From the IMG/VR virus record IMGVR_UViG_3300028025_003877, positions 1 through 27,422 of that record: a stretch of 27,422 nt of DNA; one strand, given 5' to 3'. Position numbers and translations under genes: made by a program. Below the pieces are notes generated by a model. The model was not told the DNA's origin and searched no databases. It saw only the letters and a list, made by a program, of their open reading frames with translations. Source of the DNA: a virus. Shown here one piece after another: positions 4,672 through 15,546 of this stretch (position 1 is its first letter; each line of letters starts with the position of its first letter).

Positions 4672-6816
4672 CTATCCAATGATTCCCTGAGCCGTAAGTC
4701 GGCGCAAGATTTTCCCCATCTTTGATGGCAACTCGGCTGGGTTCTCCACCTTAACAAACTCGCTGCCGTAGATGGAAGCGTTCTCGTCTCGGATGCCCCA
4801 AGCACCGACACCGATACCAATGACTACGCCGCCATCTGCTCGGATTGTTGCGATCATATCCTTAGTGTTCTCCGATACCGCGCCATCCGTGATCTGAAGG
4901 ATGACCCGTCGCTTAGCGTCAATGCTCTTGAGACGCTCCCATGCGACCGCGAGACCCTCAGCGGCGGGAGTGCCGCCACCTCCCCACTTCCACATCTTCG
5001 CCAGCATCGTCTTTGTAATCCGCGACGAGAACTTCTTGGCGATCCCAACCTGATAGTTGCAGAATCCATGAATCTCGTACGGAATCCTATTGCGCTCCAA
5101 CGCTGAGCCAGCAATCGCTACCGACTGGATCGCGTACTCTGCTGGGCTTGCCGAGCAGTAGTAGCGGGTATCATCCTCTATCCACTCCTTCTCTGTCTGT
5201 GATGTTAGCCCGTAGGTTGCGCGCTCCTTTACATACTCTTGATATCGCTTTCCCTGACTGCCAATATATTGCGCTCGCGTAGTTAGGGTGTCATAGATGC
5301 TATTCCCGTTGATCTGACCGCCTTCGTACATTGAGCCGCTGAGGTCGACGCTTACGATAAACGCTGAGCCGCCGACATTGCCGTCATCCTGCTGATTGAA
5401 GATATCAACTTTACCCACTCGCATCTGCGAAGCGCGGCGAACATCCACGCGACCAGATCGCTCGTTGCGCTTGACGCGCTTACTCGCGGCAGTCTGCGAG
5501 ATGACTCGCATTTGCAGAGCCAGCGCATTAGCAACTCCACCGAACGGAGCGGTCAGCATGTCGATCGCCGAACCCTCCAACTTCTCTGACTCCTCAGCAT
5601 CCTTCCACTCATTATCCTTACGAGTCTGCAATCGCTCCTTGCCAATGTTGGCGACTCGGATTGTCTTGTCATCCTGATAGCCAAGCGCGCCAGACGAGCG
5701 AACCTCTACCGAGATAGAGTTCTGCTCCTCAAACAAGTCAAGATTCACATCACTGATGTCGCTCTTGGAGATGCCAGATGGCTTGACCGAAGCAACACCG
5801 CCGTATGATAGCGTCGGTGCTACGCGGTACATATCTCCCGCCTCTGGCTTGACGATGCCCTCAACGGCTCGCATGATTGACTTCGCGCGCTTACGCAGCG
5901 AGTCAGTCGTAGCCCCGCCGACGACCTTATCGTATCCGTCGGTAGTCAGGACGCGGCTGCTACCAGAAGTACCCTTGTCGTTGCCCATACGCTCGTCTAG
6001 GGCGTTCTTATGCGCCTGTTCCGTAGCATCATAGGTTCGGCTCTCTCGCAAGATAGGCTTGTCTGAGGACGGAGGAGTTGGTTCTCCATCGCCCTGCTCG
6101 TTGCCGCCAGTAGTGCCGTCCGAAGGGTCGGACTCGACCTCTTCCTTCTTGCCGTCACCCTTTGTGCGCTGCGTCGGGTCAGGCATGCCGCCCTTTTCTG
6201 GCTTCCCCGCTGCCGACTTCTTTGGCTTGCGACCTGCGCCCTTTGTATTTTCTGCGACCTCATCAAACAGCGACAAGATCAACGGAATCATCGGCACAAG
6301 TTCGCCCGTGTTCTTTGCGGCGCGTACCTTATTGAGATAGCGAGTAATGAATAGGGCGATTACTTTCTGGGCGCGCGGCTTGATCATGTGGGTAGCATAT
6401 TCATAGCCAGCCACTTCAAGGTAGAAGCATTTGATTGCCTGAATCGCCCACGGCTCAGTCAGCAGCGTTGGGAAGAACTCGTCCACCAACTGCGTCTGGA
6501 ACTGCCATTTTAGTCCGCGCTTTGCGTGGAAGGACTTGCGCTCCATGCGCCCATCTTCAAGGACATTGAGGATCAGGTGCTCCATCTGGTCAAGACCCTT
6601 GCCAGCATCTCCGTCTGTGCTAGTGATATGCAGAGCCTCGTGGCTCGCAAGAACCTGAGCGTTGCGCGCGCCGACTGGCAACTGCACGAAGCGCGTTGGA
6701 AGGTGCGTGCTCGCACCCTTCTCCGTGCTCGGCATGACAATCGTGCCACTCTGACCCGTGAAAGCGTCAATATAGGTAGCCAACTGGCTCTGGTTGAACA
6801 GATACTTCTTAGGCAT
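4672..6816 (-). CDS. CobT-like VWA-domain protein with N-terminal HExxH motif
   Basis: 714 aa. Start ATG 6816 follows GAGGAGGTTGCAA and overlaps the AAA+ gene by 8 bases. The N-terminal domain has HEALH at 59-63 and LNVLEDGRMER near 83-93, the arrangement seen in zincin-like domains of some VWA proteins. A low-complexity K/G/P/D/E-rich linker spans roughly 200-270. The C-terminal VWA domain carries the metal-ion-dependent adhesion site: DLSGS about 491-495, a GGTP Thr about 615, and TDG about 643-645. Known: VWA proteins of this kind work with MoxR/CobS AAA+ ATPases as chelatase-like or remodelling complexes. The phage substrate is unknown. A cobaltochelatase role is unlikely without other cobalamin genes. 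Confidence 0.8.
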   Translation of the reverse strand: MPKKYLFNQSQLATYIDAFTGQSGTIVMPSTEKGASTHLPTRFVQLPVGARNAQVLASHEALHITSTDGDAGKGLDQMEHLILNVLEDGRMERKSFHAKRGLKWQFQTQLVDEFFPTLLTEPWAIQAIKCFYLEVAGYEYATHMIKPRAQKVIALFITRYLNKVRAAKNTGELVPMIPLILSLFDEVAENTKGAGRKPKKSAAGKPEKGGMPDPTQRTKGDGKKEEVESDPSDGTTGGNEQGDGEPTPPSSDKPILRESRTYDATEQAHKNALDERMGNDKGTSGSSRVLTTDGYDKVVGGATTDSLRKRAKSIMRAVEGIVKPEAGDMYRVAPTLSYGGVASVKPSGISKSDISDVNLDLFEEQNSISVEVRSSGALGYQDDKTIRVANIGKERLQTRKDNEWKDAEESEKLEGSAIDMLTAPFGGVANALALQMRVISQTAASKRVKRNERSGRVDVRRASQMRVGKVDIFNQQDDGNVGGSAFIVSVDLSGSMYEGGQINGNSIYDTLTTRAQYIGSQGKRYQEYVKERATYGLTSQTEKEWIEDDTRYYCSASPAEYAIQSVAIAGSALERNRIPYEIHGFCNYQVGIAKKFSSRITKTMLAKMWKWGGGGTPAAEGLAVAWERLKSIDAKRRVILQITDGAVSENTKDMIATIRADGGVVIGIGVGAWGIRDENASIYGSEFVKVENPAELPSKMGKILRRLTAQGIIG

Positions 6817-7771
6817 TTGCAACCTCCTCAGTCTTAGGCGCGTCCTCCCCTGCGAAGGAGTCCAAGAACAACTTGTGAACGACAGGGCGATCCTCAGCGT
6901 TCACCTTGTTAGTGAACGCAATCTCTACCGCAGACATCATTGGGACATCGTTGGACAGGATCGCAATGTCAATGGCGCGTCGGGTACTAGCCGTCACGAA
7001 CATCGCCAGATTGTAGGCTGGCTGACCCTCCTTGACTGGCTCTGGCGCAATGCCACATGCTTTACGGATCGTATTCATTACCTCAACGATACGCATCGCT
7101 CGTGAATGTTTGATACCAGAAGCCCGTGCAATGACTACCGCTTCCTTCTCTGGCTGAGCCAGACCAAGATACTGAACCTCCGACACAATGAATCGGTCAA
7201 GGGTCGCCTCGTTGAGAATCTTAGCCCCAGCATATTGACCGCTATCGGCAGGGTTCGCCGTGGCGACGAGCATAAAGCCAGTCGTCGGAGATACCCGCTC
7301 TGAGCCAGAAGGATTCTCATAGATGTTGAGATCGTAATCGTTGGCGAGGAAGTCATGCAGTCGCATGAGTGTTCGCTCGTCGGCTGCGTTGATCTCGTCA
7401 AGGACAAGGATGCCGCCAGCACGGAGCGCATTAGGCAGAACGCCATCACGCCACTCCACCGACAGACCCTTGTCGCCGTTTACTGGGACTGGCAGACCGA
7501 TAAGGTTATCGCTCGTCGTGCCTTCTGCAAGGCTGACGACAAAGAGCGGCGCACCAATCTTGTTGGCGAACCAGCGAATCGCTGCGTTCTTGCCCGTGCC
7601 AGTATGACCCATCAGCATGACGGGACGATTGTGCTTGTACCCAAGAGCAAGCGCACTAATCTCTTCGCCCTGAGGTTCATAGTCCTCAACTGGCGGGATC
7701 AACGACTTATACTTGTCGTCTACAACTGGCTTAGTTAGTGAGATACCAGCAATCTCAATCGTGTTAGACAT
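6809..7771 (-). CDS. MoxR/CobS-like AAA+ ATPase
   Basis: 320 aa from ATG 7771, chosen because GGAGGTGGAT precedes it as in the neighbouring leaders; the in-frame start at 7801 lies in the leader. Walker A is GHTGTGKN (55-62), Walker B is ILVLDE (121-126) with INAADE after it, sensor 1 is TANP (171-174), and the EATLDRF block (188-194) carries the arginine-finger region typical of MoxR/CobS proteins. The Walker A ends in Asn where Thr or Ser is usual. It is the first gene of the operon with the VWA partner, a layout known for MoxR-VWA pairs. Expression starts from an R1 repeat (7811-7836) followed by a small hairpin. Confidence 0.85.
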   Translation of the reverse strand: MSNTIEIAGISLTKPVVDDKYKSLIPPVEDYEPQGEEISALALGYKHNRPVMLMGHTGTGKNAAIRWFANKIGAPLFVVSLAEGTTSDNLIGLPVPVNGDKGLSVEWRDGVLPNALRAGGILVLDEINAADERTLMRLHDFLANDYDLNIYENPSGSERVSPTTGFMLVATANPADSGQYAGAKILNEATLDRFIVSEVQYLGLAQPEKEAVVIARASGIKHSRAMRIVEVMNTIRKACGIAPEPVKEGQPAYNLAMFVTASTRRAIDIAILSNDVPMMSAVEIAFTNKVNAEDRPVVHKLFLDSFAGEDAPKTEEVANA

Positions 7772-7810: not shown

Positions 7811-7836
7811 CTATCAACCCGAATCATTACGGACTT
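7811..7836 (-). repeat. R1 repeat copy 1 (variant), leader of the AAA+ gene
   Basis: Minus-sense AAGTCCGTAATG, 4 variable bases, GGGTTGATAG. It is followed by a GGGCA/TGCCC hairpin (7796-7807), a second GTTGAGTATGGAGG and the start at 7771. The change CCC to TCC keeps pairing with GGGTT through G-U. Confidence 0.9.
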
Positions 7837-8190
7837 CGGCGGTGGTCTAGACCTTACGGCTCCTACCACCTCTGCCCATTGACTCTGATGTGCATTGAGC
7901 AGATAGGCAGAGTCGCCCTATCTTGACTGGCAAGCCAGCCTCAATGCGGTCTACGGGTCATCTCTATGGGGTAGACTAACTCCCCATACGCACGGCACTT
8001 TCAGAAACTTTTCGCCACGCTCCACATCGGTAGGCTATGATCACTTGCCCCACTCGTATTATGTATGACTACCTGTAATGAAACTGGTTCACATACACTT
8101 CGGCTTTCGCCTAATACGAGTTCCGTTGCTTTGCGAGGCTACCGCGAGCCTCTGTCTGTTCCGTTCCTGACTGAGAGGTTTTATCCTCCA
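7837..8190 (-). ncRNA. Candidate structured non-coding RNA
   Basis: This 354-base segment lies between R1 copies 2 and 1 and has no credible ORF on either strand: after the R1-linked GGAGG there is no usable start codon in the minus sense. It is rich in perfect complementary blocks: 8052-8061 with 8112-8121 (10 bp), enclosing 8062-8067 with 8092-8097 and a GGC-GAAA-GCC hairpin at 8102-8111 (a three-way junction); 8135-8152 (6-bp hairpin); 7949-7954 with 7971-7976, interleaved with 7965-7971 and 7982-7988 (pseudoknot order); 7881-7887 with 7908-7914, competing with 7870-7876 and 7906-7912; and 7841-7846 with 7865-7870. I saw no tRNA, tmRNA or RNase P signatures. The strand is inferred from R1. 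Confidence 0.5.
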
Positions 8191-8216
8191 CTATCAACCC
8201 AGACCATTACGGGCTT
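8191..8216 (-). repeat. R1 repeat copy 2, head of the non-coding cassette
   Basis: A full consensus copy followed in minus sense by TGGAGGATAAAACCTC, so its GGAGG can pair with a following CCTC, and no start codon follows. This copy heads the structured segment 7837-8190 instead of a gene. Confidence 0.9.
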
Positions 8217-8262: not shown

Positions 8263-8271
8263 GACTTCCAG

Positions 8272-8338
8272 AAAAATAGGCTGCTCATCTGAGGGCTGAT
8301 AGGAGGTGTCATACCAGCCCTCTGATGAACAGCCTATT
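8272..8338 (-). terminator. Intrinsic terminator
   Basis: In minus sense a stem of about 23 pairs (AATAGGCTGTTCATC and GAGGGCTG arms with one small mismatch) closes an 18-base loop and runs straight into TTTTT. It begins 4 bases after the stop of the gene at 8342. This is the only terminator in the accessory region with a clear U-tract. Confidence 0.9.
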
Positions 8339-14416: not shown

Positions 14417-14442
14417 CTATCAACCCACACCATTACGGGCTT
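14417..14442 (-). repeat. R1 repeat copy 14 with leader hairpin
   Basis: Followed by TGAGG, a GGCATC-loop-GATGCC hairpin (14396-14412), then a second TGATAGTGGAGG and the start at 14378. GATAGTG therefore occurs on both sides of the hairpin. Confidence 0.95.
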
Positions 14443-14526
14443 CCCAAGAATCGCGCCGAAATACCGCAGAAATATGGCGATATATAGGGGAGTCTATACC
14501 GATTCCCTCTATGTCGCTATCTCCTA
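14443..14526 (-). other. ORF-less R1 cassette with hairpin
   Basis: This 84-base segment between R1 copies 15 and 14 has AGGAG after the repeat but no start codon. Most of it folds as an imperfect hairpin: GCGA, ATAG and GGGA on one side against TCCC, CTAT and TCGC on the other. Confidence 0.5.
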
Positions 14527-14552
14527 CTATCAACCCTCATCATTACGGGCTT
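14527..14552 (-). repeat. R1 repeat copy 15, ORF-less
   Basis: Full copy with ATGA in the variable window, followed by TAGGAGATAGCGAC and no ATG. Confidence 0.9.
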
Positions 14553-14578
14553 ACCCACTTTCACGGCTATTCCCCGCA

Positions 14579-14604
14579 CAATCAACCCAGACCATTACAG
14601 GCTT
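14579..14604 (-). repeat. R1 repeat copy 16, degenerate
   Basis: AAGCCTGTAATG...GGGTTGATTG, with two changes, one of which alters the GATAG tail. It has no SD and lies 26 bases upstream of copy 15, so it is probably a decaying duplicate. Confidence 0.85.
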
Positions 14605-15465: not shown

Positions 15466-15491
15466 CTATCAACCCAGTCCATTACGGGCTT
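15466..15491 (-). repeat. R1 repeat copy 19
   Basis: Copy with GACT in the variable window, heading the ORF-poor cassette 15152-15465. Confidence 0.95.
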
Positions 15492-15520
15492 GGTCGGTAG
15501 TCTTGTTGCTTGTCCTTCCA

Positions 15521-15546
15521 CTATCAACCCACATCATTACGGGCTT
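15521..15546 (-). repeat. R1 repeat copy 20, tandem
   Basis: Copy with ATGT in the variable window, 29 bases upstream of copy 19, with GGAAGG but no ORF between. Confidence 0.95.

Follow-up and report, generated by a model that had tools for sequence, protein, structure and literature searches.

Large structured RNAs of phages are few, and their functions are mostly unknown. Among them, GOLLD and ROOL are elaborate, pseudoknotted RNAs of phages and prophages, with no known function, which measure from ~660 to over 800 nt, are often found near tRNA islands and are represented by models in Rfam (PMC12286853). Homo-oligomer cages are a further hallmark of these two RNAs. A different kind of phage element is found in mycobacteriophages of cluster K, whose start-associated sequences (SAS) and extended SAS are short asymmetric repeats placed in one orientation directly before many start codons, some of them with upstream inverted repeats, and these repeats sit at the ribosome-binding position (PMC3203893). 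The locus described here recalls both. It lies in the IMG/VR virus record IMGVR_UViG_3300028025_003877, whose 27,422 bases were analysed as a whole and are referred to below as the window, and it would add to the large phage RNAs a further one, with a core motif and a pseudoknot. This RNA is phage-encoded and pseudoknotted like GOLLD and ROOL but, unlike them, it is ~350 nt long, it precedes genes for an AAA+ ATPase and a VWA-domain protein, the 27,422-base window holds no tRNA genes, and neither of the two models matches it. As for the repeats, R1, which heads the RNA (and also R2), resembles SAS in being short, asymmetric, of one orientation and located before starts, although the sequence of R1 is different and R1 also heads a gene without a protein product. 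Taken as a whole, the best explanation, to which we assign a probability of roughly 0.6, is that the minus strand from 8190 to ~7840 carries a non-coding RNA gene of a new phage family, which would have R1 as its promoter and would yield a separate, trans-acting molecule.

The window contains terminase, portal and SU10-like capsid genes. The phage has no close cultured relative, as its terminase is 29.5% identical to the best match among named phages. From ~4 to 18.8 kb the minus strand is the coding strand of the window genes, and it is on this strand that the elements of the RNA locus are found (Table 1). The protein encoded at 4672-6822 carries, besides the DLSGS motif at its C-terminus, an N-terminal HEALH motif, as in metalloproteases. 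The terminator-like sequence at 8271-8338 consists of an almost perfect inverted repeat with over 20 pairs.

Table 1. Elements of the RNA locus in the window, with the parts of the RNA listed from 5' to 3'.
Feature	Position	Strand	Basis or remark
Terminator-like long hairpin, then U run; 5' of the RNA's R1	8271..8338	-	-47.9 kcal/mol, z -10.35
R1 repeat (CCCGTAATGGTCTGGGTTGATAG), promoter-like, heads the RNA	8191..8213	-	Exact copy of the 26-copy repeat
Candidate structured non-coding RNA	7837..8190	-	Fold, no ORF, covariance-model match 8167-7963; 5' end placed by inference directly 3' of R1; position of the 3' end uncertain
5' hairpin GAGG-AUAAAA-CCUC, directly 3' of R1	8175..8188	-	MFE; a hairpin often follows other R1 copies too
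P1, GUCA 8171-8168/UGAC 7960-7957	7957..8171	-	Weak, 4 pairs; costs ~1.6 kcal/mol
P2, CAGAGGCU 8154-8147/AGUUUCUG 8009-8002	8002..8154	-	MFE and covariance-model alignment
Internal loop CGCGGUA 8146-8140/GAAA 8013-8010	8010..8146	-	Same loop in three relatives
P3 (8139-8137/8016-8014) and P4 (8135-8133/8020-8018), beside the internal loop	8010..8146	-	
P5, three-way junction (8121-8112/8061-8052, arms 8111-8102 and 8097-8062)	8052..8121	-	
Hairpin-type pseudoknot, stem 7988-7982/7971-7965, loop 7976-7971/7954-7949	7949..7988	-	Exact complements
3' domain: 7947-7940/7899-7892, inner hairpin 7940-7927 and 7923-7917/7907-7901	7892..7947	-	Competes with 7912-7906/7876-7870
3' terminal hairpin GUGGU...ACCAC, without U run	7841..7869	-	Probability ~0.94; piece z -2.98
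Second R1 copy, between the RNA and the AAA+ gene	7811..7833	-	Same arrangement in three relatives
AAA+ ATPase, CobS/MoxR-like	6809..7771	-	AAA_5 1.9e-19; CobS model 3.3e-20, below cut-off
VWA-domain protein	4672..6822	-	VWA_CoxE, weak in the window protein, better in relatives (8.3e-06); DLSGS motif

The first-pass annotation had singled out 7837-8190 as an ORF-less segment with an R1 of its own. Both statements were borne out: stop-to-stop frames inside the segment reach at most 45 aa on the strand of the RNA, no ORF of note exists on either strand, and the R1 copy at its head is exact. The minus strand, from 8190 to 7837, folds at -125.9 kcal/mol, compared with -108.3 +/- 5.6 kcal/mol for dinucleotide shuffles (z -3.16, with 0 of 100 shuffles as good), and the plus strand of the same segment folds less well (z -1.90). 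The three-way junction that had been proposed is made of exact complements, its pair probabilities are mostly 0.9-1.0 and the piece alone reaches a z of -4.24; it has no counterpart in the three relatives described below, where a plain hairpin occupies that position. The pseudoknot had been read correctly as to its blocks, GUCUAC 7976-7971 with GUAGAC 7954-7949 and UAUGGGG 7988-7982 with CCCCAUA 7971-7965, which are exact complements, and a topologically equivalent hairpin pseudoknot is present in the relatives. However, both helices as drawn make use of base 7971, so that one pair must give way. The alternative pairing announced for 7906-7914 was also recovered, since in the ensemble the helix 7912-7906/7876-7870 has a probability of ~0.5 and its competitor, 7923-7917/7907-7901, one of ~0.3.

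A search with the terminase led to 17 viral loci, and the AAA+ gene was reached in two records, once in G005 (57 kb) and twice in G008 (83 kb). The AAA+ proteins of these records are 73-74% identical to that of the window, and their VWA proteins 44-47%. In G001 and G002, which have the most similar terminases (98-99%), neither an AAA+ gene nor any match to the RNA beyond R1 copies was seen, apparently because their contigs stop before that region. In G008 (IMGVR_UViG_3300027608_000021, 83,149 bases), terminase, AAA+ gene and RNA are each present twice and the repeat dialects differ; this record is probably made of two phages joined in assembly. In all three places, G005 and both halves of G008, an ORF-less segment lies directly 5' of the AAA+ gene, and a conserved ORF, which had been named as the finding that would speak against an RNA, occurs in none of these segments. 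They share 90% and 85% identity with each other over ~290 bases (blastn), and 77-88% within the aligned cores.

The alignment of the three relatives (A6) yielded a structure with 11 helices and 80 pairs, in which 96.6% of the cells are paired. Among these three sequences, which are few for an estimate of covariation (the whole family is known from four), 14 pairs changed on both sides, a figure reached in 0 of 500 shuffles. As a control, one partner was slid by one to three columns, upon which pairing fell to 37-49%, a comparison that favours the A6 structure, mainly on the share of cells paired, through its having been predicted from A6 itself. In helix 2 (columns 9-21/108-120), invariant columns amount to 5/21 and 4/19 in the two arms, yet 96% of the cells are paired. 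The 3' domain of the relatives is invariant in 81 of 86 columns, and the single-stranded blocks are nearly invariant too. Covariation in homologous loci had been set beforehand as a check on the first-pass annotation, and the helices do covary; judged from the alignment, the pattern of conservation is that of a real RNA. An ordinary spacer that folds by chance has thus become extremely improbable as an explanation: a z of -3 alone can occur in spacers, but the covariation and the conservation of the slot in relatives speak against it and, as far as alignments can tell, this reading is already refuted for the relatives.

It could still be argued that the RNA of the window and that of the relatives are unrelated, two structured RNAs that came to occupy the same slot by chance and whose common loop and pseudoknot order are coincidental. 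Indeed, plain alignment of the window RNA with those of the relatives gave scores mostly within the shuffled range, with one of six tests nominally low (5 of 300 shuffles). A covariance model was built from the relatives alone (model R1, not to be confused with the repeat) and applied, with filters off, to both strands of the full window. Its best match was 8167-7963 on the minus strand, with 11.1 bits and an E-value of 0.018 over 54.8 kb of both strands, ahead of a second-best match with 7.2 bits and an E-value of 0.27, these E-values being rough by the tool's own statement. Since a pattern-selected control, a plain inverted repeat, scored 10.4 bits with the relatives' model, the modest bit score alone is no proof.

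The core common to both consists of the internal loop CGYGGUA opposite GAAA, with covarying flanks, which are ACU/GGU and ACC/GGU in the relatives versus GCU/AGU and GCC/GGC in the window; the loop and its flanking stems are then followed by GAGC/GCUC and CGC/GCG. The MFE fold of the window RNA, computed before the relatives were known, already held this loop. The window holds one instance of the motif, at the RNA, and of 20000 shuffled versions of the RNA 14 contain it, in a test framed after the match had been seen. The order of elements is likewise common, namely P1-P2-loop-P3-P4-P5-pseudoknot hairpin-P1'-pseudoknot strand, and in the window, as in the relatives, P1 closes off both the 5' domain and the pseudoknot hairpin. 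The hairpin pseudoknot after the 5' domain is common by topology only, as the sequences differ: in the window GUCUAC of the hairpin loop pairs with GUAGAC, in the relatives GGCAGA with UCUGCU, the second block in each case lying just 3' of the hairpin, beyond the short P1 strand. When the nested topology of the family was imposed on the window RNA, the energy was 1.9 kcal/mol above the MFE, with the pseudoknot not counted; P2 has a pair probability of ~0.37, versus 0.59 for a local hairpin. A second model (R2), made from the 3' domain of the relatives (~86 nt), gave no match at the RNA of the window, and by this comparison the 3' third is not recognisably common to window and relatives; TCAAGATNGG follows a hairpin in both the window and the 3' domain of the relatives.

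The modest score, the plain alignments and the unmatched 3' domain would suit two unrelated RNAs. Against this stand the ranking of the right place and strand first in 54.8 kb, the rarity of the loop motif and the same succession of elements from P1 to the pseudoknot strand, which make independent origins quite unlikely. We conclude from these comparisons that the window RNA can be taken as a diverged member of a new candidate family of structured RNAs, present in a small group of uncultured tailed phages.

This RNA appears to be missing in Rfam, in 50,697 phage records searched at the nucleotide level and, as judged by its core pattern, in the genomes of 84,980 species of bacteria and archaea. 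Neither the window nor the relatives' loci gave a match in Rfam at the gathering score, in agreement with the initial impression that no known RNA class was involved. At E-values up to 10, the window, the relatives' loci and the RNA segments alone gave only low-score matches dismissed as chance, which were to microRNA-type hairpins, to a frameshift element, to the model of a CRISPR repeat and to a snoRNA. The queries for the phage records were the window RNA and that of one relative, and neither gave a match. Viral contigs were scanned with the AAA+ and VWA proteins, singly or as alignments, with the repeat R1 and with patterns of the RNA core, which brought no members beyond G005 and G008; eight other loci with a 16-mer were rejected as chance, as they had no other similarity. 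In the cellular genomes, the core pattern gave 7 matches, and the sole one with the loop motif (L072) was a simple inverted repeat beside a gene.

The pseudoknot and the long conserved internal loops would also be in keeping with a ribozyme or an intron remnant, either group I-like or self-cleaving. Such an origin is very unlikely, given that no Rfam ribozyme or intron matches down to E 10, that no split gene surrounds the RNA and that neither a reverse transcriptase nor a homing nuclease was noticed beside it in the part of the neighbours that was searched. A group I intron in particular was rejected, as its model did not match and the genes flanking the segment are whole. The CobS-like nature of the AAA+ protein led to consideration of the cobalamin riboswitch, which the RNA resembles as a pseudoknotted element before a cobaltochelatase-like gene, the relatives even containing a GGUGAAA string; however, the corresponding Rfam model does not match, and a repeat copy of its own separates the RNA from the gene. 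Similarly, the vicinity of a VWA protein gene is reminiscent of bacterial Y RNA and Ro60/Rsr, but no Rfam Y RNA (YrlA) matches and the VWA protein of the window shows no TROVE (Ro) domain at E-values up to 1, only VWA families.

The arrangement of the repeats provides a further line of evidence. R1 occurs in 26 copies in the window, all on the minus strand, where 0 are expected by chance, and an ATG follows the end of most copies after ~12-48 bases, a stretch that often includes a small hairpin or a ribosome site. The relatives lack R1; instead, TGTTAGGGTTTAGGGTATATGG is found in G005 and in one half of G008, and TGAAATGGTTTCGGCTAGAGG in the other half, both used like R1, in one orientation and just 5' of starts. 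These dialects B and C take the place of R1 before the RNA. As dialects A, B and C are found at equivalent genes of related phages (L042, L043, L044), the repeat and its reader must co-evolve. In all four genomic places (the window and the three of the relatives) a repeat copy lies on both sides of the RNA, which is headed by one copy, but by two in tandem in L042 and L043, and in all four the copy between the RNA and the AAA+ gene has a leader and a ribosome site of its own behind it. The persistence of one arrangement with three dissimilar repeats provides good evidence that the RNA is treated as an independent gene. The presence of R1 before a gene without protein product fits a promoter better than a translation signal, and R1 is the putative promoter of the RNA. 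A scan for sigma-70 promoters gave nothing above chance at R1 on the strand of the RNA, and a search for an RNA polymerase of the T7 type that might read R1 gave no match, a negative that carries no weight, since the control genomes were without a match too.

The main rival explanation holds that the RNA is a cis-acting leader, that is, the 5' UTR of the AAA+/VWA mRNA, working as a riboswitch or through autoregulation by its own products, with the R1 copy at 7811-7833 as an internal element instead of a separate promoter. The RNA does lie directly 5' of the AAA+ start in 4/4 genomes, on the same strand and within ~100 nt, and no intrinsic terminator was found 3' of it, before the AAA+ gene, in the window or the three relatives, so that read-through into this gene is possible; moreover, the competing helices of the 3' half would suit a switch. 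On the other hand, the ribosome site of the AAA+ gene lies beyond the helices of the RNA, none of the riboswitch families matches, and a full gene-start repeat, with its own leader and ribosome site, intervenes in every case. This last arrangement favours a separate RNA over a simple leader, which we hold to be possible but clearly the less likely of the two. The earlier proposal, in which R1 heads a structured RNA placed ahead of the AAA+/VWA operon, thus gains from the syntenic, covarying homologues, the match of the covariance model, and the lack of both an ORF and an Rfam counterpart, and the RNA is probably a separate transcription unit acting in trans.

A mechanism can be outlined as follows. 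R1 would start transcription of the RNA, with the 5' end just after the repeat, and the hairpin 8338-8271 would stop transcription arriving from the preceding gene, so that the RNA would accumulate as a separate molecule of ~300-350 nt. With less certainty, and speculatively, it might be the RNA component of a trans-acting ribonucleoprotein, in which the CGYGGUA/GAAA loop, the pseudoknot and the 3' domain invariant in the relatives could serve as binding surfaces, and the partner could be the AAA+/VWA proteins or a host machine. A CobS/MoxR-like AAA+ protein paired with a VWA protein is usually a remodelling machine. The constant presence of the RNA beside the two genes suggests a common task or common timing, without implying contact. 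A new class of trans-acting phage RNA forming a ribonucleoprotein with the CobS-like AAA+ and VWA proteins, hence an RNA-dependent MoxR/VWA machine made during infection, is rather unlikely, and the fixed pairing with the operon makes the partner hypothesis directly testable.

Two additional observations concern the repeats elsewhere in the window. A second repeat, AAGTGTGTAATGGTTGAGGTAG, is found on the minus strand between 14.6 and 17.8 kb, often as inverted pairs (CTACCATTACACACTT...AAGTGTGTAATGGTAG) just 5' of R1, a disposition like that of the extended SAS of cluster K. In addition, R1 copies are clustered at 14417-14601 and 15466-15543, some of them without a clear ORF behind, and these may represent the heads of further non-coding RNAs or of dead genes.
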